From: Ancylobacter oerskovii
GTDB lineage: Bacteria > Pseudomonadota > Alphaproteobacteria > Rhizobiales > Xanthobacteraceae
Assembly: GCF_018390555.1 (NCBI RefSeq)
Contig: NZ_JAHBGB010000037.1
Location: 1-64,000 of the forward strand
Reading direction: 5' to 3'
DNA length: 64,000 bases
Made by a program: the position numbers and the translations under genes. The stretch's first letter is position 1. Every line of letters begins with the position of its first letter. Of this stretch, positions 49,010-64,000 are shown in pieces. The notes below the pieces were generated by a model that was not told where the DNA came from, searched no databases, and worked only from the letters and a program-made list of their open reading frames with translations.

Positions 49010-50368
49010 ATGAATCTCTCGACCTTGCTCCAAGCCCGCGCCGCCGCCGGCCGTCCGGTCCGGGCCGGCCTGATCGGCGCCGGCAAATTCGGCTCGATGG
49101 TGCTCGCCCAGGCGCAGCGCATCGCGGGACTGCAGATCGTCGCCGTCGCCGACCTCAATGTCGGCAAGGCGCGGGAATCGCTGGCGCGGGTCGGCTGGCC
49201 GGCGGAGCGCTACGCGGCGACCAGCGCCGGCGACGCGGTGAAGACCGGCCGCACCTTCGTCACCGACGACGTGGCGGCGCTGCTGGCCTGCGACGAGATC
49301 GAATGCGTCATCGAGGCCACCGGCCACCCGATCGCCGGCACCCGCCATGCGCTGGCCGCCATCGACGCGAGCAAGCATGTGGTGATGGTCAATGTCGAAG
49401 CCGACGTGATGGTCGGCCCGATCCTCGCCGAGCGCGCCCGCAAGCAGGGCGTCATCTATTCCATGGCCTATGGCGACCAGCCGGCGCTGATCTGCGAACT
49501 GGTCGACTGGGCCCGCGCCACCGGCTTCGAGATCACCGCCGCCGGCAAGGGCATGAATTTCGAGCCGCGCTACCGCTACTCCACCCCCGACACCGTGTGG
49601 GGCTTCTTCGGCTGGACCGAGGAGGAGGTGAAGGCCGGCGACTTCAATCCGAAGATGTACAACTCCTTCACCGACGGCACCAAGGCGGCGATCGAGATGG
49701 CGGCGGTCGCCAACGGCACCGGACTCGACTGCCCGGATGACGGGCTGGCCTTCCCGCCCGCCGGCCTGCACGACCTCGCCAAGGTGTTCCGCCCGGCGGC
49801 GGATGGCGGGCGCATGGCGCGCTCCGGCCTCGTCGACATCGCCGCCAGCCAGGAGCCGGACGGGCGCGAGGTCTACAACAACATCCGCTACGGCGTGTTC
49901 GTCACCTTCAAGGCGCACAACGAATATGCCCGCGCCTGCTTCAAGCAGTACGGCCTGCTCACCGACCCGTCCGGCTGGTACGCCTCGATGTGGCGCCCGT
50001 TCCACATCATCGGGCTGGAGACCTCGGTGAGCGTGCTCTCGGCCTGCCTGCGCGGCGAGCCGACCGGCTGCTCCAAGGAGTTCCGCGGCGACGCGGTGGC
50101 CACCGCCAAGAAGGACATGCAGCCGGGCGAGATGCTGGACGGCGAGGGCGGCTACGCGGTGTGGGCCAACGCCATCCCGGCGACCCGCAGCCTCGATTTG
50201 CGGGCGCTGCCGATCGGCCTCGCCCACAACGTCAAGCTGAAGCGGCCGCTCAAGAAGGACCAGATCGTCTCCTTCGACGATGTCGAGCTCACCGCCGATC
50301 TCGACGTGGTCCGGCTGCGCCAGGAAATGGAAGACCGCTTCCGCCCCGGCACCAGCGTCGCCGCCTGA
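49010..50368 (+). CDS. DRL-like oxidoreductase (homoserine dehydrogenase-like, SAF domain), paralogue 1
   Basis: NAD(P)-dependent oxidoreductase of 452 residues. The Rossmann fold is VRAGLIGAGKFGSMVLAQA. Conserved blocks follow: IECVIEATGHPIAGTRHALAA, then VVMVNVEADVMVGPIL and YSMAYGDQPALICELVDWA. A C-terminal SAF-like domain contains CAVAKKDMQPGE-type residues (ATAKKDMQPGEMLDGEGGYA). This layout matches the family that includes Brucella DRL, an alternative first enzyme of the MEP pathway, as I remember it. Many paralogues of that family are thought to do something else. Here it leads an operon with a TRAP transporter and sugar-acid enzymes, so a catabolic role is more likely. The ATG at 49010 matches the family start. 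Confidence 0.85.
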   Translation: MNLSTLLQARAAAGRPVRAGLIGAGKFGSMVLAQAQRIAGLQIVAVADLNVGKARESLARVGWPAERYAATSAGDAVKTGRTFVTDDVAALLACDEIECVIEATGHPIAGTRHALAAIDASKHVVMVNVEADVMVGPILAERARKQGVIYSMAYGDQPALICELVDWARATGFEITAAGKGMNFEPRYRYSTPDTVWGFFGWTEEEVKAGDFNPKMYNSFTDGTKAAIEMAAVANGTGLDCPDDGLAFPPAGLHDLAKVFRPAADGGRMARSGLVDIAASQEPDGREVYNNIRYGVFVTFKAHNEYARACFKQYGLLTDPSGWYASMWRPFHIIGLETSVSVLSACLRGEPTGCSKEFRGDAVATAKKDMQPGEMLDGEGGYAVWANAIPATRSLDLRALPIGLAHNVKLKRPLKKDQIVSFDDVELTADLDVVRLRQEMEDRFRPGTSVAA

Positions 50369-50452
50369 GGCGCGGGCGAGGGCAGGGTGGTGCACGCCTC
50401 CCTGCCTTCGCATCCGGCCCTCGAACCCTTCGCTTTCCCACAGGACGACGAC

Positions 50453-50764
50453 ATGACCGCTGCCCCGCACACGCCCTTCGTCGTCATCGCCGAGTTCCGG
50501 GTGAAGCCCGGCGCGCTCGACGCCTTCCTCGCCGCCGCGCGAGACGATGCCCGCCGGTCGCTCGCCGACGAGCCGGGCTGCCGGCAGTTCGACGTCGTGG
50601 TGCCGGAGGCCGGCGACAGCGTGGTGTTCTACGAGGTCTATGACAGCCGCGCCGCCTTCGACGCGCATCTGGAGACGCCGCATCTCGCCCGCTTCCGGCA
50701 GGCGTTCCCACCGCTGATCATCGAGGAGCGGCCGGTGCGCTTCGCGGCCCGGCAGCATCCGTGA
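50453..50764 (+). CDS. antibiotic biosynthesis monooxygenase (ABM) fold protein
   Basis: Protein of 103 residues with the dimeric alpha-beta-barrel ABM fold. Typical blocks are FVVIAEFRVKPGALDAFLAA, then EPGCRQFDVVVPEAGD and VVFYEVYDSRAAFDAHLETPHL. Relatives include YgiN (quinol monooxygenase) and LsrG (a phospho-sugar isomerase). The latter is tempting in an operon for sugar acids. The ATG at 50453 is used; it starts 84 bases after the DRL-like gene. A hairpin GGCAGG / CCTGCC (50381-50406) lies in the gap. Confidence 0.8.
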   Translation: MTAAPHTPFVVIAEFRVKPGALDAFLAAARDDARRSLADEPGCRQFDVVVPEAGDSVVFYEVYDSRAAFDAHLETPHLARFRQAFPPLIIEERPVRFAARQHP

Positions 50765-50787
50765 CCGCCGGAACGGGAGACAACGCC

Positions 50788-51723
50788 ATGTCCGTCACCT
50801 CCGCCGCCACGCTTCGCCGGATCGGCTTCATCGGCACCGGCATCATGGGCGGCCACATGGCCCGCCGTATCGCCGGGGCCGGCTTTTCGGTCCGCGCCTG
50901 GAACCGCACCGCCGCGAAATCCGAGGCGCTCGCCGCCGATGGCGTCGAGGTCGCGCCCTCGGCCCGGGCGGCGGCGGCCGGCGCCGATGCGGTGGTGTGC
51001 ATGCTCTCCTCCGGTCCGGTCTGCGATGCCGTGCTCGGCGGGCCGGAAGGGGTGATCGCCGCCATGCGCACCGGCGCGACGCTGGTGGTGATGAGCTCGA
51101 TCCCGGTGGAGACCGCCCGCGCCCAGGCGGAGGCCAGCGCCCGCCGTGGCCTGCGCTATGTCGATGCGCCCGTCTCGGGCGGCGAGCGCGGCGCCCGCGA
51201 GGGCACGCTCTCCATCATGGCCGGCGGCGAGGCGCGCGCTGTCGCCGATCTCGCCCCGCTCTTCGCGCCGCTCGGGCGCGTCACCCATGTCGGGCCGGCC
51301 GGCTCCGGCGAGCTTGCCAAGCTCGCCAACCAGTTGATCGTAGCCTCGAACATCTGCGCGGTGGCGGAAGCCCTGCTGCTCGCCGAGCGCGGCGGCGCCG
51401 ACCCCGAAAAGGTGCGCGAGGCGCTGATCGGCGGCTTCGCCGATTCCACCGTGCTGCGCCAGCACGGCGAGCGCATGGTGCGCGGCGATTTCGCGCCGGG
51501 CGGCCCGGCCAAGTATCAGGTGAAGGACACCTCGACGGCGCTGCGCCTCGCCCGCTCCTACGGCCTCACGCTTCCGGTCGCCCACACCGTCGACCGGCTG
51601 TTCCAGAACCTGGTCGATCACGGCGGTGCCGATCTCGATCACAGCGCCGTGCTCCTCGAGCTGCGGCGCGCCAACCAGCCGGCGGAGGCTTCCGCCCCGG
51701 CGGAGACTTCCGCCGACGTCTGA
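50788..51723 (+). CDS. beta-hydroxyacid dehydrogenase (GarR/LtnD-like)
   Basis: NAD(P)-dependent dehydrogenase of 311 residues of the 3-hydroxyisobutyrate / tartronate semialdehyde reductase family. Cofactor motif IGFIGTGIMGGHMARRI, substrate loop VDAPVSGGERGAREGTLS and the catalytic-lysine helix GSGELAKLANQLIVASN are clear. Relatives reduce 2-hydroxy-3-oxo acids or oxidise tetronates (LtnD). In this operon it most likely works on an acid sugar or its C3 product. The ATG at 50788 has GGGAGA upstream; the GTG at 50761 overlaps the previous stop but is less likely. Confidence 0.88.
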   Translation: MSVTSAATLRRIGFIGTGIMGGHMARRIAGAGFSVRAWNRTAAKSEALAADGVEVAPSARAAAAGADAVVCMLSSGPVCDAVLGGPEGVIAAMRTGATLVVMSSIPVETARAQAEASARRGLRYVDAPVSGGERGAREGTLSIMAGGEARAVADLAPLFAPLGRVTHVGPAGSGELAKLANQLIVASNICAVAEALLLAERGGADPEKVREALIGGFADSTVLRQHGERMVRGDFAPGGPAKYQVKDTSTALRLARSYGLTLPVAHTVDRLFQNLVDHGGADLDHSAVLLELRRANQPAEASAPAETSADV

Positions 51724-51780
51724 CCATGGCAAATAATGCCAATCAACCGGGACAAAGAATCCCGCTACGGAGGAAACGAC

Positions 51781-52788
51781 ATGCACGCCTTCTCGCTCCG
51801 CGGCCTCCTGGTCGCCGCCTCTCTCGCCGCCTCGCTCTCCCTTGCGGTTCCCGCCGGCGCCGAGACGCTCACCCTCTCCACGCCGGACGCCGACAATTCG
51901 GAAATCACCCTCGCCGCCAAGCACTTCGCCGAGGTGGTGAAGCAGAAGACCAATGGCGAACTGGAGATCAAGGTCTTCCCTAACGGCACCCTCTATGGCG
52001 GCGATCCCTCCGCCGGGGTGAAGCAGCTGGCCGGCGGCTCGCTCGACATGCTGCTCAACGCCACCTCGCTCTATGCCACCTTCAACCCGAAATTCACCGC
52101 CATCGCGGTGCCCTATCTGTTCGACGGCACCGACCAGCTGCGCGCCTATCTCGACAGCGATCTCGGCGAGGAACTGCGCGGCGACCTGTCGAAGATCGGT
52201 ATCCTCGGCCTCGACCTGTGGTCGCGGCCGCTGCGGCAGATCACCAATTCCAAGCGGCCGATCACCGCGCCGGACGATCTCAAGGGCCTGAAACTGCGGG
52301 TGCCGAACAACCCGCTCTGGGTGAAGTTCTTCGGCGCCATGGGCGCGGCGCCCACCCCGATGGCCTTCGCCGAGGTGTATAATGCCCTGCAGCTCGGCGT
52401 GGTGGACGGGCAGGAGAACCCGGTCAACGTGCCGGTCAGCGCCCGGCTCTACGAAGTGCAGAAATACCTGACCATCTCCAACCACATCGCCGATGCCTGG
52501 GTGCTCGGCATGAATCCGCGCCGCCACAAGGCGCTGTCGGACGCCCACAAGGCCGCGCTCGCCGAGGCGGCGAAGGAGACCGAGGACTGGAAGGCGAAGA
52601 ACGACGCCGCCGACATCGCCGCCTCCATCGCCATTCTCGAGAAGAACGGCATGAAGACCAACGAGCTCACCGCCGAGCAGCGCGCCGAATTCGTCGCGGT
52701 GTCGAAGAGCCTCTACCCGGTCTTCGAGGCCCTGGTGAAGGACCCGTCCTTCTTCCAGCGCACCACCTCCTTCGCCGGCAAGAGCTGA
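51781..52788 (+). CDS. dctP: TRAP transporter substrate-binding protein (DctP family)
   Basis: Periplasmic solute receptor of 335 residues. A signal peptide (ending VPAGA) is followed by the DctP pattern. The carboxylate-binding arginine is probably in GLKLRVPNNPLW, and the typical stretch TPMAFAEVYNALQLGVVDGQENP is present. Such receptors bind organic or sugar acids through that Arg. GGAGG lies six bases before ATG 51781. A hairpin separates it from dctQ. Confidence 0.9.
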   Translation: MHAFSLRGLLVAASLAASLSLAVPAGAETLTLSTPDADNSEITLAAKHFAEVVKQKTNGELEIKVFPNGTLYGGDPSAGVKQLAGGSLDMLLNATSLYATFNPKFTAIAVPYLFDGTDQLRAYLDSDLGEELRGDLSKIGILGLDLWSRPLRQITNSKRPITAPDDLKGLKLRVPNNPLWVKFFGAMGAAPTPMAFAEVYNALQLGVVDGQENPVNVPVSARLYEVQKYLTISNHIADAWVLGMNPRRHKALSDAHKAALAEAAKETEDWKAKNDAADIAASIAILEKNGMKTNELTAEQRAEFVAVSKSLYPVFEALVKDPSFFQRTTSFAGKS

Positions 52789-52807
52789 CGTCGGCGTGCC
52801 GAACCCG

Positions 52808-52828
52808 GCGGCGGCCACCGGCCGCCGC
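52808..52828 (+). other. intercistronic hairpin after dctP
   Basis: Perfect 9-base stem GCGGCGGCC / GGCCGCCGC with loop ACC, 19 bases after the dctP stop, no T-tract. It parallels the hairpin after the ABC binding-protein gene at 29990-30011. Confidence 0.6.
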
Positions 52829-52855
52829 TCCCCCTCGCGGATAGGTGGTGTTCCC

Positions 52856-53476
52856 ATGTCCTCATCCGACAAATCTTCCGCCGCTGCGCCTTCCCGCGGC
52901 TTCCCGCTCGGCCGGCTGGTCGAGGTGATGGCTGATTATGCGGCGGGTCTCGCCTGCGGCGGCATCCTCGTCGTGGTGCTGATGCAGGTGGTGGGCCGGC
53001 TCATCGGCCATCCGCTGCCCTGGACCGAGGAGGCGGTGCGCTTCCTGTTCATCTGGATGGTGTTCCTCGGCCTTGCCGCCGGCTTCCGCACCGTGGAGAG
53101 CGCGCGTGTCGTGCTGTTCCTCGCCATGATGCCGCGCCTGTCGAAGCGCATCGCGGTGCCGATCTATGTCGTGTTCTCCATCGGCTTCTTCCTGCTGGTG
53201 GGCTGGACCGGCATCACCCTCGTCGAGCAGCAGATCATGATGAACGAGGAGGCGGCGACGCTGCCGATCCCGATGTGGGTCGTCGGCCTCGTCATGCCGG
53301 TCTCCTCGGTCATCGCCATCCTCGCCATCGTGGATTCGCTGCGGCGCCGGCGCGATCTGATCGCGCTGCCGGAAATGGGCCTGCCGCCGGACGAGATCGT
53401 CCATGCCGACGTCTCGATGACCGGCGGTCATCACCATGTCGCCAGCCCCACCGTCACGGGAGCGCACTATCAATGA
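52856..53476 (+). CDS. dctQ: TRAP transporter small permease (DctQ)
   Basis: Four-helix membrane subunit of 206 residues. Hallmarks are the PLPWTEEAVRFLFIWMVFLG stretch and a following loop with AGFRTVESARVVLFL. The C-terminal tail (about 165-206) is longer than usual and contains histidines (TGGHHHVASP). Its stop overlaps the dctM start by four bases. Confidence 0.9.
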   Translation: MSSSDKSSAAAPSRGFPLGRLVEVMADYAAGLACGGILVVVLMQVVGRLIGHPLPWTEEAVRFLFIWMVFLGLAAGFRTVESARVVLFLAMMPRLSKRIAVPIYVVFSIGFFLLVGWTGITLVEQQIMMNEEAATLPIPMWVVGLVMPVSSVIAILAIVDSLRRRRDLIALPEMGLPPDEIVHADVSMTGGHHHVASPTVTGAHYQ

Positions 53477-54756
53477 TGAGCGCCATCCTCTTCGCCCTGT
53501 TCTGCGTCCTCAGTGCGCTCGGCGTGCCCCTGGCCATCGCCCTCGGCCTCGCCGCCGTCGCCACGCTGTTGGTGTTCACGCCGATGCCGCTCGACCTGCT
53601 CACCCAGACGATGTTCTCCTCGATGAACTCGTTCCTCCTGGTGGCGGTGCCGCTGTTCATCCTGGTCGGCGCGGTGATGGAGCGCGGGCGGGTCGCCGAG
53701 CGCATCTTCGATTTCGCCGAATCCATGGTCGGCTGGCTGCCGGGCGGGCTGGGCCATGTGAACGTGCTGTCCTCGGTGATCTTCTCCGGCGTGTCGGGTT
53801 CCTCGGTCGCCGACATCGCCTCGGTCGGCGCCATCGAGATCAAGGCGATGGAGCGCCACGGCTTCCCCAAGGGCTATGCGGTGGGCATGACGCTGTGCAC
53901 CGCCACCCTGTCCTCGATCATCCCGCCCTCGATCCTCATCGTCATCGCCGGCTCCATCGCCAACGTGTCGATCGGCACGCTGCTAGTGGCGGGGCTGGTG
54001 CCGGGGCTGTTCATTGCCTTCGCCTTCCTGGTGTTCAACCACTTCTATTCGGTGCGCTACGGCTACAATCCGCCGTCGCCGTTCAATTTCCGCATGGTGG
54101 TCGTCACCGGGCTGCGCGCCATCCTGCCGATGCTGACCCCGCTGATCCTGATCATCGGCATCGCCTCCGGGGTGTTCACCCCCACCGAGGCGGCGGCGAT
54201 CGCGGTGCTCTACGTGCTGGTGCTGGGCGTGCTGGTCTACCGCACCATCCCGCTCGCCGAGGTGCCGGAGATCCTGGTCTCCACCGCCCGCATCTCCGGC
54301 ACCATCCTGTTCATCGCCGCCACCTCGCAGATCGCCGCCTGGGTGTTCACCTATGAGGGGCTGCCGAACACGCTGACGGCGATCCTCGGCGGCATGAATC
54401 TGGGGCCGACCACCGGCCTCCTGGTGATCTTCGTCTTCCTGCTGCTGATCGGCATCTTCATGGAGGCGATCCCGGCGATGTTCATCCTCATCCCGGTGCT
54501 GATGCCGACGGTGACGGCGCTCGGCATCGACCCGATCCATTTCCTGATCATCACGGTGATGACGCTCACCCTCGGCCTCGTCACCCCACCGGTCGGCGTC
54601 TGCCTGTTCGCGGCGGCGCAGGTCTCGGGTATGAGCGTCGACGAGGTGGTGAAGGGCTCGCTGGCGCCGATGACCGTGCTGACGCTGGCGATCTTCGCGC
54701 TGGTGCTGTTCCCGGTGCTGACGCTCGGGCCGCTGCACCTGCTCGGGCTCTATTGA
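53473..54756 (+). CDS. dctM: TRAP transporter large permease (DctM)
   Basis: Large membrane subunit of 427 residues with about 12 helices. Family signatures are SSMNSFLLVAVPLFILVGAVM, then FSGVSGSSVADIASVG and CTATLSSIIPPSILIVIAGS, with FMEAIPAMFILIPVLMP later. It forms the Na+-coupled channel with dctQ. Both ATG 53473 and 53476 are possible. Confidence 0.93.
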   Translation: MMSAILFALFCVLSALGVPLAIALGLAAVATLLVFTPMPLDLLTQTMFSSMNSFLLVAVPLFILVGAVMERGRVAERIFDFAESMVGWLPGGLGHVNVLSSVIFSGVSGSSVADIASVGAIEIKAMERHGFPKGYAVGMTLCTATLSSIIPPSILIVIAGSIANVSIGTLLVAGLVPGLFIAFAFLVFNHFYSVRYGYNPPSPFNFRMVVVTGLRAILPMLTPLILIIGIASGVFTPTEAAAIAVLYVLVLGVLVYRTIPLAEVPEILVSTARISGTILFIAATSQIAAWVFTYEGLPNTLTAILGGMNLGPTTGLLVIFVFLLLIGIFMEAIPAMFILIPVLMPTVTALGIDPIHFLIITVMTLTLGLVTPPVGVCLFAAAQVSGMSVDEVVKGSLAPMTVLTLAIFALVLFPVLTLGPLHLLGLY

Positions 54757-54767
54757 GGATCAGGTCG

Positions 54768-55286
54768 ATGACGGTGCCGGACTTCGTGGTGGTGATGGGC
54801 GTGTCGGGGGCCGGCAAGAGCACCGTGGCCCAGCAGCTTGCCGACCGGCTCGGCGCCGCCTTCATCGAGGCCGACCGCCTGCACAGCCCGGAGAATGTCG
54901 CGCTCATGCGCCGGGGCATCGGCCTGACCGATGCCATGCGCTGGCCGTGGCTGGAGGCGGTGGGCGCGGCGGCGCGGGCGGAGCCGCGCCGGCCGGTGGT
55001 GATCGCCTGCTCGGCGCTGCGCCGCATCTATCGCGATTTCCTGCGCGAGCGGCTTCCCGGCCTGCGCTTCGTCTTCGTCGACGGCCCGCGCGAGGTGATC
55101 GCCGAGCGCCTGCGCGCCCGGCCGGGGCATTTCGCCGGCATCACCCTGCTCGACAGCCAGCTGGCGACGCTGGAGCCGCCGGAGCCGGGCGAGCGGGCGG
55201 TGACCGTCTCGCTGACGGCGAGCCCGGAGGCGATGGTCGACATGGCCCTGCGCGGGCTCGGCGCGGCGGAGCGGGTTCCCGGCTGA
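54768..55286 (+). CDS. gluconokinase (GntK/IdnK family)
   Basis: Carbohydrate kinase of 172 residues. P-loop MGVSGAGKSTVAQQLA and the family stretch DRLHSPENVALMRRGIGLTD, then MRWPWL, identify the gluconokinase family, which phosphorylates C6 sugar acids at O6. The middle CSALRRIYRDFLRE is also conserved. In this operon it may use an imported sugar acid other than gluconate. It starts 11 bases after dctM and ends three bases from a convergent LysR gene. Confidence 0.88.
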   Translation: MTVPDFVVVMGVSGAGKSTVAQQLADRLGAAFIEADRLHSPENVALMRRGIGLTDAMRWPWLEAVGAAARAEPRRPVVIACSALRRIYRDFLRERLPGLRFVFVDGPREVIAERLRARPGHFAGITLLDSQLATLEPPEPGERAVTVSLTASPEAMVDMALRGLGAAERVPG

Positions 55287-55289
55287 GGA

Positions 55290-56246
55290 TCAGTCCGCCG
55301 GCACCGGCTTGCGGGCGGTCCGGCCGGCCAGCGCCTCGGCGGCGGCATGGGCATGGCGGCGCCGGGCCTCCCAGCCGGCGCGCTCGGTGCGCAGCCAGTC
55401 GAGGAACAGCCGCACCTTGCGCTGGCGCAGATGCTCGTGCGGGCAGACGATCCACTGCGTCACCAGCCGGATCGGCGGCGGTCCGGCCACCGGGCAGATC
55501 AGCCGGCCGGTCTCCAGCTCGCGCTCCATCATCAGCGTGCTTTCCAGCGCGATGCCCATGCCGCCGGCGGCGGCGTCGATGGCCATGTGGCTGCGGTCGA
55601 ACAGCACCCGCGCCCAGCGCTCCGCCGGCTGCACGCCGGCCAGCGCGAACCAGCGCGGCCATTGCGCCTGCGACTTCACCGAGTGGATCAGCCGGAAGCG
55701 CGGCAGCTCGGCGGCGGTGAGGCTGGCCGGGGGCGCGTAGTCCGGCGAGCAGGCCGGCAGGAAGTCCTCCTCCGCCATGCCCTCGACGAACAGGCCAGGC
55801 CAGCGCCCGTCGCCGTGGCGGATCTCGACGTCGACCACCTCGCGCTTGAACGCGGTCGGCTCGTTGGTGCCGTCGATGCGCACCTCGAGGTCGGGATGGC
55901 GGTCGAGAAACGCCCCGAGCCGCGGCAGCAGCCATTTGTTGGACAGGGTCGGCGTGGCGCGCACCGTCAGCGTCGTCACCGAGCGGTAGCCGCGGATCAG
56001 GTTGGTGGCCTCGGCGATGCGCTCCACCTCGTCGGTGATGGAGGCGAAATAGCGCTCGCCGGCCTCGGTGAGCACGACGCGGCGGCCGACCTTGCTCATC
56101 AGCGTCAGGCCGAGCTGGGTCTCCAGCGCCTGCACCTGCTGGCTCACCGCCGAGGGCGTGACGGCGAGTTCCTCCGCCGCCTTGGAGATGCTGCCGAGGC
56201 GGGCGACGGTGCGGAACACGAAGATGGCGCGGATCGGCAGCTGCAT
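55290..56246 (-). CDS. LysR-family regulator, GcvA-like
   Basis: Transcription factor of 318 residues. The winged helix at about 5-65 (FVFRTVARLGSISKAAEEL, then TPSAVSQQVQALE) is followed by a GcvA-type effector domain. The ATG at 56246 matches the family start; the frame extends to 56378 with unlikely residues. It converges with the TRAP operon and could regulate it. Its target site is unknown. The tail after about residue 295 is Ala/Arg-rich. Confidence 0.88.
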   Translation of the reverse strand: MQLPIRAIFVFRTVARLGSISKAAEELAVTPSAVSQQVQALETQLGLTLMSKVGRRVVLTEAGERYFASITDEVERIAEATNLIRGYRSVTTLTVRATPTLSNKWLLPRLGAFLDRHPDLEVRIDGTNEPTAFKREVVDVEIRHGDGRWPGLFVEGMAEEDFLPACSPDYAPPASLTAAELPRFRLIHSVKSQAQWPRWFALAGVQPAERWARVLFDRSHMAIDAAAGGMGIALESTLMMERELETGRLICPVAGPPPIRLVTQWIVCPHEHLRQRKVRLFLDWLRTERAGWEARRRHAHAAAEALAGRTARKPVPAD

Positions 56247-56453
56247 CGCTTCCTCGCTTTCGGTCGCGGGCCGGGCGGGCGTCCGGGAGAGGGGACCCAA
56301 CCACCCGGCGGGGCGGGGAGGCCGCCGGCCACGCCTGCCCAACGCCTGCCCAACGCCGGCCCCGTCCCGCCCATTCATATCGCCGGGCGGCGGCGATGGC
56401 GAGGCCGCGACGAGCGGGAGCGCGCCACAGGTCGGTGCGCGGCCCGCCCCGCC

Positions 56454-57353
56454 TCAGCGCCGCAGGTGCCGGCGGGCCGCCTGCATCACGTCGCGCGTCA
56501 GTTCGGCGATCCGGTCGGCGGCGAGGCGGTTCACCTGCCAGTACAGCGGTACGTCGAGCGGCGTGTCCGGGATCAGCTCCACGAGCCGCCCCGCCTCGAT
56601 ATGCGGCCGGACCAGCAGGGCAGGGTTCATGCCCCAGCCCATGCCGGCGATGCAGGCCTCCACGAAGCCGTGCGTCGAGGGCAGCCAGTGGGTGGGATGA
56701 ACCACCTCCTGCCCGATCGCCTGGCGCAGCCAGCGGTCCTGCAGCCGGTCCTTCTGGCTGAAGGTCAGCGCCGGCGCCGCGGCGAGGGCGTCCGGGGTGA
56801 CGCCGGCCGGGAAGTGGCGGTCCATGAAATCCGGGCTTGCCGTCGCGTGGTAGCGCAGCGCGCCGAGCGACAGCCGGCGGCACCCCGCGACGGGCTTTTC
56901 GGTGCTGGTGACGGCGGCGATCACCCGTCCCTGCCGCAGCCAGTCCGCGGTGTGCTCCTCGTCGTCGACGGCGATGTTCAGGAGATGCGGGGAGCGGCGG
57001 GCGAACGCCGATATCCCGGCCATGAACCAGGTGCCGAGGCTGTCGGCATTCGCCGCGACATGCAGCGTCACCTTCTGCGCCGGCCCGGCGGGCGCCGCGA
57101 GCGCGGGCAGGTGCTCCAGCAGGTCGCCTTCGAGCATGCTGACATTTTCCATGTGCCGGCACAGCCATTCGCCGGTCAGCGTCGCCGTGCAAGGGGCGCC
57201 GCGCGCGATCAGCACCGTGCCGAGGCGCTCCTCCAACTGCTTCACCCGTTGCGAGACGGCGGAGGGCGTCACATGCAGCAGGCGGGCGGCCTTCTCGAAG
57301 CTGCCGGTCTGAACCACCGTGGAAACCGCGCGCAAGGCAGCGTAGTCGAGCAT
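56454..57353 (-). CDS. ArgP/LysG-like LysR regulator
   Basis: Regulator of 299 residues of the ArgP/LysG (IciA) group, which activates the lysine/arginine exporter gene in response to basic amino acids. N-terminal LDYAALRAVSTVVQTGSFEK and TPSAVSQRVKQLEERLG are characteristic, as is THGFVEACIAGMGWGMNP in the effector domain. It is divergent from the LysE-type exporter gene at 57453, the standard arrangement. Confidence 0.93.
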   Translation of the reverse strand: MLDYAALRAVSTVVQTGSFEKAARLLHVTPSAVSQRVKQLEERLGTVLIARGAPCTATLTGEWLCRHMENVSMLEGDLLEHLPALAAPAGPAQKVTLHVAANADSLGTWFMAGISAFARRSPHLLNIAVDDEEHTADWLRQGRVIAAVTSTEKPVAGCRRLSLGALRYHATASPDFMDRHFPAGVTPDALAAAPALTFSQKDRLQDRWLRQAIGQEVVHPTHWLPSTHGFVEACIAGMGWGMNPALLVRPHIEAGRLVELIPDTPLDVPLYWQVNRLAADRIAELTRDVMQAARRHLRR

Positions 57354-57403
57354 GGATTTAGTTTTGCTTCATCGAGATTAGCTTCATTAACTAGCCTAAA
57401 TCC
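57354..57403. promoter_or_regulatory. ArgP/LysG operator region
   Basis: Perfect 8-base inverted repeat GGATTTAG (57354-57361) and CTAAATCC (57396-57403) with 34 bases between them, in the divergent space. It also contains a repeated GCTTCAT. It is probably the regulator-binding region. Confidence 0.55.
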
Positions 57404-57452
57404 GGCCGCCGCGGTAGCGCAGGCCATCCTTCCCGGCGGCGTGGCATCTGCA

Positions 57453-58061
57453 ATGGATCTTCCGGTTTTCGCGACGGGCCTGACCATGGGCCTCAGCCTC
57501 ATCGTGGCGATCGGCGCCCAGAATGCCTTCGTGCTGCGGCAGGGCCTGCGCAACGAGCACATCTTCGCCGTCTGCCTCACCTGCGCCGTGTCCGATGCGC
57601 TGCTCATCATGCTCGGCGTCACCGCCTTCCGGCAGATCGCCACGCTGCTACCCTGGCTGGATCCGGCGATGCGCTATGGCGGCGCCGCCTTCCTGTTCTG
57701 GTATGGCGCGAGGAACATGCGTTCCGCCCTGGCCGGCTCGGGCGCGCTGGCGGCGGCGGAAGCCGGGCGGGCGAGCCTGTGGCAATGCCTCGCCCTGTGC
57801 CTGGCGCTCACCTGGCTCAATCCGCACGTCTATCTCGATACGGTGGTGCTGCTCGGCACCATCTCCACCCGCTTCCCGGGCCGCGAGATGTCCTTCGCCG
57901 CCGGCGCCATGACCGGCTCCTTCCTGTTCTTCTTCTCGCTGGGCTATGGCGCGACGCGGTTGCGCCCGATCTTCGCGAACCCGATGGCCTGGCGCCTCAT
58001 GGAAGCGCTCATCGCCCTCACCATGTGGCTGATCGCCTTCCGGCTGGCGAGCGGGGCGTGA
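57453..58061 (+). CDS. LysE/ArgO-type amino acid exporter
   Basis: Exporter of 202 residues with six helices. Family motifs are LSLIVAIGAQNAFVLRQGL at the N-terminus, and LALTWLNPHVYLDTVVLLG in the second half. It exports lysine and/or arginine and is divergent from its regulator. The ATG at 57453 is used; GTG 57441 is in frame. It protects against excess basic amino acids or dipeptides. Confidence 0.93.
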   Translation: MDLPVFATGLTMGLSLIVAIGAQNAFVLRQGLRNEHIFAVCLTCAVSDALLIMLGVTAFRQIATLLPWLDPAMRYGGAAFLFWYGARNMRSALAGSGALAAAEAGRASLWQCLALCLALTWLNPHVYLDTVVLLGTISTRFPGREMSFAAGAMTGSFLFFFSLGYGATRLRPIFANPMAWRLMEALIALTMWLIAFRLASGA

Positions 58062-58079
58062 TCGCCCGCCATTGCCGCG

Positions 58080-58955
58080 TCAGTGACCGTCGAAAACGTC
58101 GAGGTTGTTTCTGACGAAGTCGATGAAGCGGCCGATGAGCGCGATCTGAGTGAATTCGCTGCGCCAGACCATCCAGGCATTGCGGGCGAAGGGGGAGCCG
58201 TTGGCATAGTCGAGCGGCGTCGAATACAGCCGGTGCGACCGGCCGGTGAATTTCGGCGACAGGAAGATGCCGTAGCCGAGCCCGTTGGCGATCATCTCCA
58301 GGCAGGTGTCGCCATGGTTGGCGCGCATGCCGATCAGCATCGGCGCGGTGAAGTGGCTGTGCCACCAGTCGTTGAGCAGCCGCTTGGCGAACGGGTCGCT
58401 GAGATAGGAGATCTGCGGCGTCGTCGGCAGCTCGGCGAGGTCGAGCGGCTCGCGATTGACGAGGCAGGCCTGCTCCTGGCCGATCAGCATGCGCTCGAAC
58501 GGGCCGTCGAAGTCGCCATAGATGAAGCCGACATGCACCCGGCCATCCTCGATCAGCTTCACGATCTCCGAGCTGACGCCGGTGGAGATGTCGAAGGAAA
58601 CGTCGGGGCAGTCCGCCTGATAGCGCTTCAGCCCGGCGGGCAGCGTGTAGCGGGCGAAGGAATTGGTCACGCCCAGCCGCAGGGTGCCCGAGCGGTCGCC
58701 GAAGCTCATGAGCTGGGTGCGGATCTCGCCGAAATGCGCCAGCACCTTCCCGGCCTCGCGGGCGAGGTATTCACCTTCCGGCGTAAAGGCGACGCCCTTG
58801 GGCGTGCGCACCACCAGCCGCACCCCGAAGTCGCGCTCGATCGCCTGCAGGCGCTTGGAAAGCGCCGGCTGGGTCATGGCGAGCCGGTCGGCCGCGCGGG
58901 TGATGTTCGCGGTGCGGTGCAGCTCCAGGATGATCTTGCAGGTGCTCTCGTCCAT
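58080..58955 (-). CDS. LysR-family regulator, CynR/CbbR-like, divergent to operon 2
   Basis: Regulator of 291 residues. HTH at about 4-62 (ILELHRTANITRAADRLAM, then TQPALSKRLQAIERDFGVRL). The effector domain continues with GVTNSFARYTLPAGLKRYQ and TGVSSEIVKLIEDGRVHVGF. Its start at 58955 is chosen over longer reading to 59021. It lies 271 bases from operon 2, and a palindrome with the LysR T-N11-A pattern sits between, so it very likely controls operon 2. Confidence 0.88.
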   Translation of the reverse strand: MDESTCKIILELHRTANITRAADRLAMTQPALSKRLQAIERDFGVRLVVRTPKGVAFTPEGEYLAREAGKVLAHFGEIRTQLMSFGDRSGTLRLGVTNSFARYTLPAGLKRYQADCPDVSFDISTGVSSEIVKLIEDGRVHVGFIYGDFDGPFERMLIGQEQACLVNREPLDLAELPTTPQISYLSDPFAKRLLNDWWHSHFTAPMLIGMRANHGDTCLEMIANGLGYGIFLSPKFTGRSHRLYSTPLDYANGSPFARNAWMVWRSEFTQIALIGRFIDFVRNNLDVFDGH

Positions 58956-58983
58956 GTCGCGAAGGCGGCGCCGTTGGGTCAGG

Positions 58984-59000
58984 CATTCCATTTTGGAATG
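58984..59000. promoter_or_regulatory. LysR operator candidate (T-N11-A)
   Basis: CATTCCA-TTT-TGGAATG, a 17-base perfect dyad with a T-N11-A core, 29 bases upstream of the LysR start and 227 bases before operon 2. It is the type of site LysR proteins bind in divergent regions. Confidence 0.65.
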
Positions 59001-59226
59001 GCAATCCATGAGAGATCGCAATTTTACAGGCGCGTCAACCTCGCTTAGGACTGATCAGAATAACAAGAGGCATCGGCGCCGCGCGCGACCGGCCCAGGGA
59101 ATGCCGCTCAGGCATTCGCCGACGGGAGAAGGCAAGCTCGCCAGTATCCGTTCTGTGTGTGGAGAGACACGCCGCGCCCGCAAGGCGCGGATGGATCCCT
59201 ATTGTTTGGAAAGAGCCGGCGTCGTC

Positions 59227-60642
59227 ATGATCTATCATCATCTCTATTCCAAGTTCGCCAAGAAGGACGAGGTGCGCGTCGGCGTGATCGGTGCCGGAAA
59301 CTACGGCACAGCCATCGTCACCCAGGATCCCTACACGCCGCGCATGACCGTCGTCGCGGTGGCGGACCTTTCGGTGGAAGCCGCCCGCGGGGCCTATGAG
59401 AAGGCCGGGTTCGCGGCCGAGACGCTGGTCTATTGCGCCACCGCGGCCGAGGCCGAGGCGGCCATTGCCGCCGGCAAGCGCGTCTATACCGACCAGCCGG
59501 CGCTGGTGGGCGACATTCCGGCGGTGGACATCGTCTGCGAGAGCACCGGCGTGCCGGAAGCCAGCGCCACCTATGCGCTGCAGGCCATCGGCAACGGCAA
59601 GCACGTCGCCATGATCACCAAGGATTGCGACGTCACCGTCGGGCCGATGCTGAAGAAGCTGGCGACCGAGGCGGGCGTCGTCTACACGCCGGTCGACGGC
59701 GACCAGCACGGCCTGCTCATCCAGTTCTACGAATGGGCGAAGTCGATCGGCCTCACCGTGCTCAGCGGCGGCAAGGCCACCGATGGCGAGTTCGTCTATG
59801 ACGATGTCGCCGACACGGTGACGATCAAGACTGACAAGAAGATCCACGCACCCTATGTCGAGACCATCGAGGTCGCGCCCGAGGACCGCAAATATCTCGG
59901 CATGATCCCGGCCGGAAAGGCGGCGGAATATATCGAGAAGCGCGTCGAGATCCTGTCGAAGCTGCCGCAGCCGGGCGCCTATGATTTGTGCGAGACCACG
60001 GTGGCGGCGAACTATACCGGCCTCGCCCCGGCGGTGGACACGCTCTATCATGCCCCGCTGCGCATCACCGAGATCCCCGTCGCCTATTGCGAGCGCGAGA
60101 ATGGCGGCATCTTCGAGGGCGCCGGCGTCATCGATCTCGCCACCTGCCTGCGCGATCCCGTCGAATCCGGCCTCGGCGGCGGCGTGTTCCTGGTCGTGCG
60201 CTGCGACAACGCCTATTCCAACCATGTGCTGACCACCAAGGGCCAGATCGCCAATGCCGACAACAGCGCGGCGGTGATCTACCGGCCCTATCACCTGTGC
60301 GGGGTGGAGACCTCCAGCACCATCCTGGTCGCCGGCCTGCTTGGCCTCGACACCGGCTCGGACGACTACCGGCCGCGCTTCGACCTGATCAAGGTCGCCA
60401 ATCGCGACATTGCGGTCGGCGAGGTCTTCGGCAACGACCACAGCCCGCAGCTCACCGCCCGCATCGTGCCCGCTTTGCCGGTTGCGCCCGGCAATGCCGC
60501 CGCGGCGCATCTGATCACCGGCAACCGCGCCAGGGTCGATATCGCGAAGGGCACCACCATCACCTACGACATGGTCGAGGAGCCGGCCGGCTCGCTATTG
60601 TGGCAGCTGCGCCGGCAGCAGGACGCCGCCTTCCTGGCCTGA
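59227..60642 (+). CDS. DRL-like oxidoreductase (homoserine dehydrogenase-like, SAF domain), paralogue 2
   Basis: Oxidoreductase of 471 residues with the same layout as the protein at 49010-50368. Rossmann motif VRVGVIGAGNYGTAIVTQD, then IVCESTGVPEASATYALQAI, VAMITKDCDVTVGPMLKKLA and VYTPVDGDQHGLLIQFYEWA. The central NVEADV of Brucella DRL and of paralogue 1 is TKDCDV here, so residues at the active site differ. The C-terminal SAF-like part has GTTITYDMVEEPAGS. First gene of operon 2, with transport, racemase-like and kinase genes. The ATG at 59227 is chosen; 59191 is an alternative. Confidence 0.85.
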   Translation: MIYHHLYSKFAKKDEVRVGVIGAGNYGTAIVTQDPYTPRMTVVAVADLSVEAARGAYEKAGFAAETLVYCATAAEAEAAIAAGKRVYTDQPALVGDIPAVDIVCESTGVPEASATYALQAIGNGKHVAMITKDCDVTVGPMLKKLATEAGVVYTPVDGDQHGLLIQFYEWAKSIGLTVLSGGKATDGEFVYDDVADTVTIKTDKKIHAPYVETIEVAPEDRKYLGMIPAGKAAEYIEKRVEILSKLPQPGAYDLCETTVAANYTGLAPAVDTLYHAPLRITEIPVAYCERENGGIFEGAGVIDLATCLRDPVESGLGGGVFLVVRCDNAYSNHVLTTKGQIANADNSAAVIYRPYHLCGVETSSTILVAGLLGLDTGSDDYRPRFDLIKVANRDIAVGEVFGNDHSPQLTARIVPALPVAPGNAAAAHLITGNRARVDIAKGTTITYDMVEEPAGSLLWQLRRQQDAAFLA

Positions 60643-60700: not shown

Positions 60701-62083
60701 ATGCTGCTGACCCTGCTTGCCTGGGGAACGGTCATCGTCTTCATGACGCTGATCCTCACCAAGAAGATGCACCCCTTCACCGCTATCGTATTGATTCCAG
60801 TGCTGTTTGCCCTTGTCGGCGCGCTGTTCGGGCTGTACGAGGCGCCTACCGCCAAGACCCTGAAGATCCCCGTCGAGAGCGTCACGATGTGGGATCAGGT
60901 CTTCGTGCTCGGCGACTGGGTCAAACAGGGGCTGACCAAGACGTCGGGAACGGCGTTCATGCTGTTCTTCGCGATATTCTTCTTCTCTCTGATGTTGAAT
61001 GTCGGCCTGTTCGACCCTCTTACCAAGAAGGTCGTGCAGCTCGCCAAGGGAGATCCTCTGAAAGTACTTGTGGCGACCAGCGTACTGGCCACCGTCGTCT
61101 CGCTTTCCGGCGACGGAACGACCACGACGCTGATCTGCTGCACGGCGCTGATCCCGGTCTACCAGAAGCTCAACCTCAAGATGATGCATCTGGGCGTGCT
61201 GCTGATCCTGCAGAACACCATTCTCAACCTCCTGCCGTGGAGCGGCCCCACCGCCCGAGTCATTGCAGTTATTGAGGGAATCGACGTGCAGGCGCTGTTG
61301 ATGGCGCTGCTGCCGGGCATGGTGCTGGGCAGCCTGTTCGTCACCGCCGGCGCCTATTGGCTCGGTTTGCAGGAGCGGCGGCGCCTCGGCGTGCAGCATC
61401 TCAGCGACGCCGACATCGAGGCGATCTTCGCGATACACACCAGCGACGAGGATGCGCTGAAGCGCCCGCAATTCGCGCTGGTGAACGGCATCCTGACCGT
61501 CGCGGTGCTGGCCTCACTGATCTCCGGCGTGTTCGATCCCGTCTTCACCTTCCTCGTCGGCACGGTGGTGGCGCTCGTCATCAACTACGAGACGCTGACG
61601 CAGCAGAAGGACCGCATCTACGCCAATTCCGGCGAGGTGTTGCAGACGGTGATCATGGTCATCGGCGCCGGCGTGTTCATGGGCCTGTTCACCAATTCGG
61701 GCATGTCCGATGCGCTGGCCTCCAGCCTCGTCCACATCGTGCCGCCGGCACTGGGCGATTTCTGGGGCCTGATCGTGGTGCTGATCTCGGCGCCGGGTGG
61801 CTTCTTCCTCTCGAACGATGCCTTCTTCTACGGCGTGCTGCCGCCGCTGGTGGAAGCCGGCAAGGTCTATGGCTTCACGCCTTTCCAGATCGGCTTCGCT
61901 TCGTTGCTCGGTCAGGCCTTCCACATGCTGAGCCCGCTCACCGCCTTCATCTACCTGCTGCTCAGCATGACCGGGCTGGACATGGGCGAATGGCAGAAGG
62001 CCTGCTTCCCCTGGTGTCTGGCGCTGTTCGGCATCTTCATCGCCTGCGCCGTGCTGCTTGGGGTGGTGCCGCTCTATCGCTGA
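60701..62083 (+). CDS. CitMHS-type metabolite:H+ symporter
   Basis: Membrane transporter of 460 residues and about 12 helices, similar to the CitMHS (Mg2+-citrate/H+) family. The helix hairpins carry LSGDGTTTTLICCTALIPVY and LNLLPWSGPTARVIAV, the second at the position of the second substrate loop. An opposite-half motif is LISAPGGFFLSNDAFFYG. Substrate could be a di/tricarboxylate or a sugar acid. GGGAGGAAG lies before the ATG. It starts 58 bases after the DRL-like gene. Confidence 0.88.
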   Translation: MLLTLLAWGTVIVFMTLILTKKMHPFTAIVLIPVLFALVGALFGLYEAPTAKTLKIPVESVTMWDQVFVLGDWVKQGLTKTSGTAFMLFFAIFFFSLMLNVGLFDPLTKKVVQLAKGDPLKVLVATSVLATVVSLSGDGTTTTLICCTALIPVYQKLNLKMMHLGVLLILQNTILNLLPWSGPTARVIAVIEGIDVQALLMALLPGMVLGSLFVTAGAYWLGLQERRRLGVQHLSDADIEAIFAIHTSDEDALKRPQFALVNGILTVAVLASLISGVFDPVFTFLVGTVVALVINYETLTQQKDRIYANSGEVLQTVIMVIGAGVFMGLFTNSGMSDALASSLVHIVPPALGDFWGLIVVLISAPGGFFLSNDAFFYGVLPPLVEAGKVYGFTPFQIGFASLLGQAFHMLSPLTAFIYLLLSMTGLDMGEWQKACFPWCLALFGIFIACAVLLGVVPLYR

Positions 62084-62181: not shown

Positions 62182-62853
62182 ATGACGGCACGCCCTCGTA
62201 TCGTCCTCCTCCACGCCACTCCTGTGGCGATGGAGCCGGTGCAGCAGGCTTTTTCGGCCGGCTGGCCGGAGGCGGAGACTGTGAACCTGCTCGACGACGC
62301 GCTGAGCGCCGATCGTGCCCGGACCGCTGACATCACCGAGGAGATGACCCAGCGCTTCCTCGCCCTCGGCCGCTATGCCGCCCGCATCGGCGCCGATGGC
62401 GTGCTCGTCACCTGCTCGGCGTTCGGCCCGGCGATCGAGCGCCTTGCGGAGGAAATGCCGGTGCCGGTTCTGAAGCCGAACGAGGCGATGTTCCGTGCCG
62501 CCATTGCCAGCGGCCGGCGCATCGGCATGCTCGCCACCTTCGCCCCCGCCGTCGCGACCATGACCGCGGAGTTCGAGACCTTCGTCGCCGAGACCGACGC
62601 CACTGCGCGCCTCGACACCCTCGTCGTTGCCGACGCCATCGACCGGCTGCGCGCCGGCGATGCGGCGGCCCATAATGCGCTGGTGGCCGCCCGCGCTCCC
62701 GAACTGGCCGGCCATGACGCAATCATGCTGGCGCATTTTTCCACCTCGCGTGCCGCCGAGGCGGTGCGCCGGGCGGTCGACGTACCGGTGTTCACCGCGC
62801 CCGATGCCGCGGTCGAATGCCTGCGTCAGCTGATCGAACACGCGGGGAACTGA
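62182..62853 (+). CDS. aspartate/glutamate racemase superfamily protein, one-cysteine
   Basis: Protein of 223 residues in the Asp/Glu/hydantoin racemase superfamily. The first catalytic cysteine is present (Cys78 in VLVTCSAFGPAIE). The second, expected in a motif like GCTH, is replaced by IMLAHFS (His185 and Ser187). Two-base racemisation therefore seems unlikely. Single-cysteine relatives act as decarboxylases or isomerases. It lies directly before the OtnK-type kinase, so it may isomerise or epimerise the acid sugar. The ATG at 62182 has CGAGG upstream. Confidence 0.82.
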   Translation: MTARPRIVLLHATPVAMEPVQQAFSAGWPEAETVNLLDDALSADRARTADITEEMTQRFLALGRYAARIGADGVLVTCSAFGPAIERLAEEMPVPVLKPNEAMFRAAIASGRRIGMLATFAPAVATMTAEFETFVAETDATARLDTLVVADAIDRLRAGDAAAHNALVAARAPELAGHDAIMLAHFSTSRAAEAVRRAVDVPVFTAPDAAVECLRQLIEHAGN

Positions 62854-62856
62854 ACG

Positions 62857-64000
62857 ATGTTGCTCGGGGTCATTGCCGACGATTTCACCGGTGCCGGCGA
62901 CATCGCCAACACGCTGGCCAAGGGGCTGCCCCCTCAGGGCGGGCTTGCGGTGACGCAATATCTCGGCGTGCCAACGCGTCCGGCCGCGCCGGAGGTGGAG
63001 GCGGGCGTCATCTCGCTGAAGACCCGCTCCATTCCCGCTGCCGACGCGGTTGCGCAGTCGCTGGCCGCCCTTGCCTGGCTGAGGGAGCAGGGCTGCCGCC
63101 AGATCGTCTTCAAATATTGCTCGACCTTCGATTCGACGCCGGAGGGCAATATCGGCCCGGTCGGCGAGGCGCTGGCCGACGCGTTCGGCGCCAGCGGCGT
63201 CATCGCCTGTCCGGCCTTCCCGACCGTCGGGCGCAGCGTGCATCAGGGCCATCTGTTCGTGCATGACCGGCTGCTCAGCGAGAGCGGCATGCAGAACCAT
63301 CCGCTCACGCCGATGACCGATCCCGACATCCGCCGCTGGCTGCGCCGGCAGACGCGCGACGCCGTAGGCCTCGTCGCCTCCCCGACGGTGCGCGCGGGCG
63401 CCGCTGCGGTTCGACAGGCGCTCGCGGCCTGTGCCGCACGCGGCGAGACGCTGGTGATCTGCGATGCGGCGACCGACGCAGATCTCGTGACGTTGGGCGA
63501 AGCGGCCGCCGAGGCACTGCTCGTCACCGGCGGCTCGGGTATCGCCATCGGCCTGCCGGCCAATTTCATCACGCGCGGGCAGGCCAAGGGCGTGGCGACC
63601 GCCTTTGCCGGGGTGGACGGTCCCGAGGCCATTCTCGCCGGCAGTTGTTCCGGTGCCACGCGCGGGCAGATCGCGATCCATGCCGCGGCGCATCCGGCGA
63701 TGGCGCTCGATGTCGATGCCGTCATGGCCGGCAAGATCGGCGTCGGCGATCTCGCCGAGTTCATTGCCGCGCATCGCGGGCAGGCGCCGCTGATCTATTC
63801 TTCCGACGACCCGGCCGAGGTTGCCGCACTGCAGAAGCGCTATGGGCGCGAAGCGGTGGCCGGCAGACTGGAGGCGCTGTTCGCCGACACGGCCCGCGCG
63901 CTGATCGCGGGAGGCGTGCGCCGCCTCGTCGTCGCCGGCGGCGAAACCTCCGGCGCGGTGGCGCAGGCCCTGGGGCTGGAGGCGCTGGAGATCGGGCCGG
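62857..64000 (+). CDS. otnK: OtnK-type four-carbon acid sugar kinase (DUF1537), 3' truncated
   Basis: Kinase of the DUF1537 family, at least 381 residues seen; the window ends before the stop. These enzymes phosphorylate 3-oxo-tetronates and related acid sugars. N-terminal substrate domain: LGVIADDFTGAGDIANTL, then FKYCSTFDSTPEGNIGPV and ACPAFPTVGRSVHQGHLFV, all close to OtnK. The nucleotide-binding half begins at about ILAGSCSGATRGQI, with RRLVVAGGETSGAVAQALG near the end. It starts three bases after the racemase-like gene. The next gene beyond the window may be an aldolase, if the usual OtnK neighbourhood applies. Confidence 0.9.
   Translation, partial: MLLGVIADDFTGAGDIANTLAKGLPPQGGLAVTQYLGVPTRPAAPEVEAGVISLKTRSIPAADAVAQSLAALAWLREQGCRQIVFKYCSTFDSTPEGNIGPVGEALADAFGASGVIACPAFPTVGRSVHQGHLFVHDRLLSESGMQNHPLTPMTDPDIRRWLRRQTRDAVGLVASPTVRAGAAAVRQALAACAARGETLVICDAATDADLVTLGEAAAEALLVTGGSGIAIGLPANFITRGQAKGVATAFAGVDGPEAILAGSCSGATRGQIAIHAAAHPAMALDVDAVMAGKIGVGDLAEFIAAHRGQAPLIYSSDDPAEVAALQKRYGREAVAGRLEALFADTARALIAGGVRRLVVAGGETSGAVAQALGLEALEIGP

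Follow-up and report, generated by a model that had tools for sequence, protein, structure and literature searches.

A 64,000-nucleotide stretch of the Ancylobacter oerskovii genome (contig NZ_JAHBGB010000037.1, positions 1 to 64,000; the window) carries two genes related to Brucella DRL, a DXR-like enzyme, and raises the question of what such proteins do when they are placed among transport, dehydrogenase and kinase genes. A first, sequence-only reading of the window treated the two as a pair of catabolic oxidoreductases for imported acid sugars. The present computational analysis of the genome (5.48 Mb, 99.76% complete) covers gene content, family placement, diagnostic residues, conserved linkage and the absence of DXR-I. 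Both genes are indeed of the DRL type, but each represents its own family and has its own set of partner genes. What emerges goes beyond the first reading: besides the two families there is a third copy in the genome, which probably accounts for a missing dxr gene. Paralogue 2, with somewhat better than an even chance, is an NAD-dependent dehydrogenase acting on a tetronate imported by a CitMHS transporter and feeding the kinase OtnK and the decarboxylase OtnC. The two genes are as follows.

49010..50368, + strand: paralogue 1, a DRL-fold oxidoreductase of the DLO2 family, assigned from PF21135, the SAF domain, its clade and an Ala at the Brucella Thr229 position
59227..60642, + strand: paralogue 2, a DRL-fold oxidoreductase of a separate, putatively fourth family, assigned from PF21135, the trees, Lys132, Lys183, Asp253 and Lys338, and a structural model

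The open frames and DRL-family blocks seen in the first reading are present in both genes. The model PF21135 (DRL_cat, cut-off 27) scores 192.1 bits for paralogue 1 and 79.5 bits for paralogue 2, placing both in the superfamily, and the SAF model (cut-off 21) gives 27.8 bits for paralogue 2 and 21.3 bits, barely over, for paralogue 1. The strong Protein Data Bank relatives of both are the Brucella DRL structures 3upl and 3upy, with E-values of 6e-65 for paralogue 1 and 1.3e-36 for paralogue 2; as judged from sequence, these matches lie far beyond chance. Paralogue 2 also has a weak match to the homoserine dehydrogenase 3mtj (E 0.00073). Identity between the two paralogues is only 27.6%. An AlphaFold model of paralogue 2, made with 46 sequences, reaches a mean predicted local distance difference test value of 95.7, and its nearest fold is 3upl, with template modeling (TM) scores of 0.78/0.84. 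Ranks 4-9 are occupied by other Rossmann-type dehydrogenases, with TM to the query of at most 0.35.

Published work distinguishes three DRL-type families, DXR-II, DLO1 and DLO2, of which those outside DXR-II are reported as uncharacterized (Carretero-Paulet et al., 2013; PMC3847144). The same paper describes position 229 (Brucella numbering) as Thr in DXR-II, Leu/Ile/Val in DLO1 and Pro/Ser/Ala in DLO2. In the alignment used here, which includes near copies and assigns rows to a paralogue type by better score and not by tree, this position is Thr in 7/7 DXR-II rows and Ile in 4/4 DLO1-like rows (four copies from two genomes of the class Alphaproteobacteria). Paralogue 1-type rows (n=46) have only Ser (37), Ala (5) or Pro (4), and paralogue 1 itself has Ala, so it fits DLO2. 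A plasmid copy from Cupriavidus necator N-1 has Pro; Table 1 of PMC3847144 gives the organism under DLO2, and this copy may be the protein meant there. In contrast to DLO2, the equivalent residue in paralogue 2-type rows, Asp253, is Asp in 103/103. Neither paralogue has the Thr of DXR-II or the Leu/Ile/Val of DLO1. By this marker, paralogue 2 cannot be placed in any of the three published families and is set apart at the sequence level by the published residue description, although the 77 DLO rows of that paper's own alignment may hold a stray paralogue 2-type row.

Other positions follow the same division. The NVEADV block of paralogue 1 and the TKDCDV block of paralogue 2, both picked out in the first reading, differ diagnostically at the Lys132 column, which is Lys in 103/103 paralogue 2-type rows and Val in 46/46 paralogue 1-type and 7/7 DXR-II rows. 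Lys338 is likewise found in all 103; other families have Val or Ala at the first position and Leu or Tyr at the second. The DRL Lys191 position is kept in both paralogues (Lys183 in paralogue 2), and the Lys193 position is Met in paralogue 1 and Thr in paralogue 2.

Two trees of the quick type, with Shimodaira-Hasegawa-like approximate likelihood-ratio support only, agree with this placement. The first contains 87 hand-picked DRL-type rows and one homoserine dehydrogenase outgroup (88 rows); the second contains 44 DRL-type rows and 16 alphaproteobacterial homoserine dehydrogenases, with the longest branches left out. DRL-type rows shorter than 370 residues were omitted from the tree set. The clade of paralogue 1 has support of 100 in the first tree and 99 in the second, the superclade that holds paralogue 2 has 97 and 93, and in both trees the two paralogues fall outside the DXR-II clade.

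The alignment and tree comparison with true homoserine dehydrogenases, suggested along with the first reading, also supports its claim that automated labels of this kind would be wrong. In the second tree, the 16 homoserine dehydrogenases lie on one side of a branch with support 100 and the 44 DRL-type rows on the other, with neither paralogue among the 16. The NCBI homoserine dehydrogenase model NF004976 (cut-off 205) gives 19.1 bits for paralogue 1 and 18.3 for paralogue 2, roughly one-tenth of what it requires. Among the folds nearest to the paralogue 2 model, 6dzs, a mycobacterial homoserine dehydrogenase, ranks only tenth (TM 0.37/0.40). The likeness that exists is a remotely alignable Rossmann domain (hhalign E 3e-6 and 5e-6) and, in paralogue 2, a retained TANK-type lysine. 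Homoserine dehydrogenase is ruled out for either paralogue by the model scores and the tree separation; the genome carries its own at C39:470246. Such labels are found on relatives: among 60 listed of 110 matched plasmid relatives of paralogue 2, at least 7 are named "homoserine dehydrogenase" and at least 11 "flagellar biosynthesis protein FlgA". The homoserine dehydrogenase NAD-binding model PF03447 (cut-off 24) is just exceeded by paralogue 1 (26.2) and just missed by paralogue 2 (23.6), and these marginal scores are therefore a visible source of the homoserine dehydrogenase labels.

Each paralogue heads its own operon, as the first reading had it, standing first in a co-directional group with transport, dehydrogenase or kinase genes. 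The operon of paralogue 2 extends beyond the end of the window and is preceded by a divergent regulator, in the following order around paralogue 2 itself.

58080..59021, - strand: LysR-type regulator, divergent from the operon, matched by LysR models (all 25 shown stay below cut-off); several relatives carry LysR too
60701..62083, + strand: CitMHS-type transporter (TIGR00784 363.5 bits, cut-off 259.7)
62182..62853, + strand: Asp/Glu racemase-superfamily protein, partner of paralogue 2 (PF01177 1.2e-17)
62857..64000 and on to C31:64125, + strand: 3-oxo-tetronate kinase OtnK, DUF1537 (NF043035 539.4 bits, cut-off 350)
About C31:64148-64801, start uncertain: OtnC, 3-oxo-tetronate decarboxylase model (NF043034 322.6 bits, cut-off 250)

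With the 3-oxo-isoapionate kinase model, OtnK scores only 109.6 bits against a cut-off of 700, and the apionate pathway was rejected on this score.

In the known pathway, LtnD yields 2-oxo-L-threonate, OtnI converts this to the 3-oxo form, and OtnK and an OtnC of the class II aldolase type lead to dihydroxyacetone phosphate; a bypass of three steps that uses another OtnC is also described (PMC12540250, citing Zhang et al. 2016 and Guo et al. 2024). The paralogue 2 operon resembles the L-threonate/D-erythronate pathway in having both OtnK and OtnC over the NCBI cut-offs, and its OtnC belongs to the class II aldolases, the type given in PMC12540250 for 3-oxo-tetronate 4-phosphate. It differs in having no LtnD, DenD or OtnI, positions that are taken here by a racemase-like protein and an enzyme with the DRL fold. 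In the reading we favor, the CitMHS transporter would import a four-carbon sugar acid (tetronate), and paralogue 2, taking the place of LtnD or DenD, would oxidize it at C2 or C3 with NAD. The racemase-like neighbor would isomerize or epimerize the substrate or the product to give 3-oxo-tetronate, which OtnK would phosphorylate and OtnC would decarboxylate to dihydroxyacetone phosphate and CO2. Among the open-licence papers that the literature searches listed, none, judged by its title or the start of its abstract, connects a DRL/SAF oxidoreductase with tetronates.

Residue conservation is consistent with simple dehydrogenation. Lys132 of paralogue 2 aligns, by hhalign (which retained 88/103 paralogue 2-type rows), with the TANK lysine in the homoserine dehydrogenase that this genome encodes. 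In the Pyrococcus horikoshii homoserine dehydrogenase, Lys116, which follows Asn115, and Lys215 contact the hydroxyl being oxidized (PMC4495429). Because Lys132 matches a homoserine dehydrogenase lysine, the paralogue 2 family looks like a plain dehydrogenase that retains Lys183, the counterpart of DRL Lys191. NAD is the predicted cofactor because Asp47 lies at the end of β2, where it is found in 97/103 paralogue 2-type rows; an aspartate at this position suits NAD. In the racemase-like partner (the window copy and 30 relatives), Cys78 is invariant (31/31), and a Ser near the end is found in 30/31, at the position where racemases would have their second catalytic cysteine.

The neighborhood of paralogue 2 is conserved among its close relatives. 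A scan of named relatives kept the best 80 of 438, so that distant members are under-sampled, and neighbors were counted within 6.5 kb and only when co-directional. The closest named relatives (score of at least 700), together with a broken Shinella copy added by hand, form a core of 30 loci from Pseudomonadota (27), Actinomycetota (2) and Bacillota (1). All 30 core loci carry the racemase-like gene, 24/30 carry OtnK and 22/30 carry OtnC. CitMHS is found in 13 and TctA in 13, and 26/30 have either CitMHS or a tripartite tricarboxylate (TTT) transporter. Co-directional LtnD, DenD, OtnI or PdxA is found in 0/30, and a lactonase (PF10282) is present in two close operons. OtnK also exceeds its cut-off of 350 in the Paracoccus (581.5) and Caproiciproducens (377.8) loci, and a badly cut OtnK frame in Herbiconiux scores 284.6, under the cut-off. 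In two control sets, no co-directional OtnK, OtnC or racemase-like gene accompanies the DLO2-type loci (0/24) or the loci that are of DXR-II/DLO1 type or divergent (0/7). The catabolic role on imported acid sugars proposed in the first reading thus appears well supported for the close relatives of paralogue 2, through this conserved OtnK/OtnC/racemase-like linkage. In the broken Shinella locus (L223, from Shinella sp. UYSO24), matches to the racemase-like gene, OtnK and OtnC are each in one piece, and those to CitMHS and to the orthologue of paralogue 2 are each spread over several separate frames.

OtnK regions in other genomes of the class were compared from the opposite direction, the genome's own second OtnK locus being excluded from the count. 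Among 37 such regions, the racemase-like gene is found in 1 and a DLO gene within 6.5 kb in 0. The racemase-like gene therefore follows DLO and not OtnK, being present in 30/30 core loci and 1/37 control regions, and the DLO-OtnK pairing is a minority variant in the class sample, since none of the 37 has a DLO. With LtnD, DenD, OtnI and PdxA sought by single-sequence seeds, 14/37 OtnK regions have LtnD, DenD or OtnI, and 23/37 have none of these and no PdxA. The proposition that DLO excludes LtnD, DenD and OtnI (0/24 vs 14/37, Fisher p 0.0004) is not relied on, as 23/37 controls have none either, the rows are non-independent, and the first count covers the same strand and the second either strand (the 24 loci have none on either strand).

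The genome holds a second OtnK-OtnC module (C12:262400-279700) with DenD (370.8 bits, cut-off 325), OtnK (548.7) and OtnC (280.3), all over their cut-offs. No LtnD in the genome exceeds the cut-off of 350, the best score being 204.3. Because a DenD set is already present and no LtnD passes, the OtnK and OtnC of the paralogue 2 operon should serve another tetronate. L-threonate is a first guess for the substrate of paralogue 2, D-erythronate being the expected substrate of the DenD set.

Several findings weigh against this reading. Among the remaining 50 of the 80 loci, which are more distant, co-directional OtnK is found in only 6/26 and 8/24, and the racemase-like gene in 2/26 and 0/24. In four other genomes of the class (L162-L165), OtnK, OtnC and the racemase-like gene are absent beside the paralogue 2-like gene, and all four carry OtnK elsewhere. 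The 13 Ancylobacter copies of a group at 36-39% identity (L092-L104) have a PdxA-family gene near 12, named as PdxA from one representative, OtnK near 1 and a TTT permease near 7/13; this group may represent another route for C4 acids. In Microvirga, DLO adjoins an OtnI-like gene at five loci, and the one such gene scored against the model reached 259.5 (cut-off 325, partial frame). Given these PdxA-family and OtnI-like neighbors, the superclade as a whole cannot share a single substrate. Even within the core, OtnK is missing from 6/30 loci, only two of which end within 3.5 kb of DLO (L191 at 0.5 kb and L238 at 3.4 kb after it). In the others, the next gene is a lactonase (L207) or an ATP-binding cassette (ABC) transporter (L203), or the opposite strand carries a LacI-type regulator (L188) or an LtnD-like gene of 177 bits (L196). 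The idea that paralogue 2 replaces LtnD or DenD is weakly tested, because 23/37 OtnK regions have no LtnD, DenD, OtnI or PdxA. Additionally, an OtnI-like gene lies at C36:185756 (396.9 bits, cut-off 325), next to a HIBADH-type gene, and the gene list places no OtnI beside the DenD-OtnK-OtnC set at C12. This distant OtnI could serve both OtnK sets, which would make C2 oxidation by paralogue 2 possible, so that the oxidized carbon may be C2 or C3.

The variation in neighbor context along both clades gives some room to other substrates. The substrate of paralogue 2 could be some other hydroxy acid of C4-C6, with a product suited to OtnK/OtnC-like enzymes. Paralogue 1 could act on an acid that is not a sugar acid, as may also hold for its DLO2 relatives linked to PhyH. 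The NCBI names are predictions, and CitMHS, TTT and tripartite ATP-independent periplasmic (TRAP) transporters carry many acids. We nevertheless regard this as unlikely, given that OtnK and OtnC exceed strict equivalog cut-offs here, that OtnK does so in Paracoccus and Caproiciproducens as well, and that two operons contain a lactonase.

Less probable still, though not negligible, is that paralogue 2 works as an oxidoisomerase, like DXR in reverse, coupling oxidation and a carbon shift in one step to give the 3-oxo acid for OtnK. Its substrate could then be a branched or a straight sugar acid, and the racemase-like protein would merely fix stereochemistry. The nearest fold to the model is a reductoisomerase, the close operons lack a co-directional OtnI, and D-apionate oxidoisomerase is an existing activity, from a pathway that includes the 3-oxoisoapionate kinase OiaK (PMC11747546); the NCBI model of OiaK also matches OtnK, though far below cut-off. 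The kinase, however, scores as OtnK and not as OiaK, and Lys132 indicates an enzyme like homoserine dehydrogenase. The inhibitor of DRL is anchored by Lys191, Lys193 and Thr229 (PMC3847144), and paralogue 2 has Thr in place of Lys193 and Asp in place of Thr229.

The first reading proposed a search for a normal dxr elsewhere in the genome, and here the outcome is not the expected one. DXR-I is found in this genome neither by PF02670, with which 10/14 control genomes were positive, nor by TIGR00243. It is also absent from all of the 28 Ancylobacter genomes searched, and present in 16/18 other genomes of the order. A third family member lies at C12:929903-931234, scores 487 bits to 3upl, and has DXR-II residues, with Thr at position 229. 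It groups with a plasmid-borne protein of Sinorhizobium fredii NGR234 (support 99 in the first tree and 97 in the second), and on the DRL side of the trees these two and a DLO1-like group make up one of three parts, apart from the clades of paralogues 1 and 2. The gene is present in 28/28 Ancylobacter genomes, one copy of which (L291, G017) has an in-frame TGA. IspH, the sole other gene of the methylerythritol phosphate (MEP) pathway sought, was found. Given its DXR-II residues, tree position and presence in 28/28, the third copy is probably the MEP enzyme, and Ancylobacter seems to rely on DXR-II alone.

Paralogue 2 shares with DXR-II a whole-length fold, and both paralogues share PF21135, the SAF end and the Lys191 position, but they lie outside the DXR-II clade, differ at Thr229 and Lys193, and sit in different operons of a genome that has a separate DXR-II. 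That either paralogue supplies or backs up DXR activity, a notion favored by the lack of DXR-I and by the membership of all three copies in one superfamily, is very improbable in view of the third copy in 28/28 genomes, its grouping with a protein of S. fredii NGR234, which PMC3847144 lists under DXR-II, the non-Thr residue at position 229 in both paralogue types, and the failure of the four DLO1/DLO2 proteins tested to complement a dxr mutant (PMC3847144). The sequence-only reading had named, as one of two situations in which it would fall, a genome without dxr and with a paralogue that rescues a dxr mutant; the first half is found here, and the third, DXR-II-type copy probably fills the role. 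Neither paralogue 1 nor paralogue 2 is likely to make MEP, and the exclusion of homoserine dehydrogenase and DXR roles for both is well supported by the comparisons above.

Paralogue 1 heads a different set of genes, followed by a convergent regulator.

50453..50764, + strand: ABM-domain protein, "putative quinol monooxygenase" in relatives (PF03992 5e-23; LsrG model 27.6 bits, far below the cut-off of 135)
50761..51723, + strand, start uncertain: dehydrogenase of the HIBADH/tartronate-semialdehyde-reductase type (PF03446 and PF14833; TIGR01505 266 bits, below the cut-off of 340.75)
51736..52788, + strand: TRAP solute-binding protein DctP (PF03480 9e-80; TIGR00787 over cut-off)
52853..53476, + strand: TRAP small permease DctQ (PF04290 2.6e-28)
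53473..54756, + strand: TRAP large permease DctM (PF06808 1.8e-104)
54768..55286, + strand: GntK/IdnK-type gluconokinase (TIGR01313 163.6 bits, cut-off 113.75)
55290..56246, - strand: LysR-type regulator, convergent with the operon (LysR models; GcvA 245.5 bits, below the cut-off of 288)

Because a broad alignment yielded no searchable stretch, the named scan was centered on paralogue 2, with no equal scan for paralogue 1. Twelve plasmid relatives of paralogue 1 match at 60% or more, of which 11 were examined (H120, with 38% coverage, was left out). In these 11 plasmid-borne orthologues, which are at least 73% identical, the ABM and HIBADH genes come next in 11/11, the HIBADH gene of one (L298) being cut by the record boundary, and a co-directional TRAP system is present in 8/11. 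Paralogue 1 is best read as a DLO2 oxidoreductase in a TRAP-fed operon; jointly with the HIBADH-type enzyme and the ABM protein, it would carry out an oxidize-isomerize-reduce conversion of an aldonate ending at gluconokinase. We put this forward tentatively, as a path that more probably than not differs in some part. Counting against it, gluconokinase is found in only 4/11 orthologous loci, and a PhyH-type dioxygenase lies beside 15/24 DLO2-type loci of the class. The abstract and sections 5-6 of PMC3847144 give no function or operon for DLO2. An acid-sugar role for paralogue 1, as first proposed, is plausible and moderately supported, through the conserved ABM and HIBADH genes. Across Alphaproteobacteria, some DLO2-type/PhyH loci (5/20) have a GntR regulator.

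Between the two operons lie two LysR genes and one LysE-like exporter, labeled by eye. Past the window end, after OtnC (L005:5541-13236), a large molybdopterin-type oxidoreductase is found, with a sugar ABC/Gfo-Idh/TIM-barrel group on the other strand, both also labeled by eye.

It is possible, at a little under an even chance, that paralogue 2 founds a fourth functional DRL-fold family, one of tetronate dehydrogenases in a new route of dehydrogenase, racemase-like isomerase, OtnK and OtnC that has been transferred across Pseudomonadota, Actinomycetota and Bacillota. If so, the route is hidden under labels such as "homoserine dehydrogenase", "FlgA" and "SAF domain protein", and its racemase partner is of a one-cysteine type. 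The lysine shared with homoserine dehydrogenases and missing in DXR-II and DLO2 would then mark where the fold left simple dehydrogenation. A testable substrate class for this large unlabeled branch would correct wrong public names, add a step to sugar-acid catabolism and open a view of how an isoprenoid enzyme and dehydrogenases of the same fold parted.

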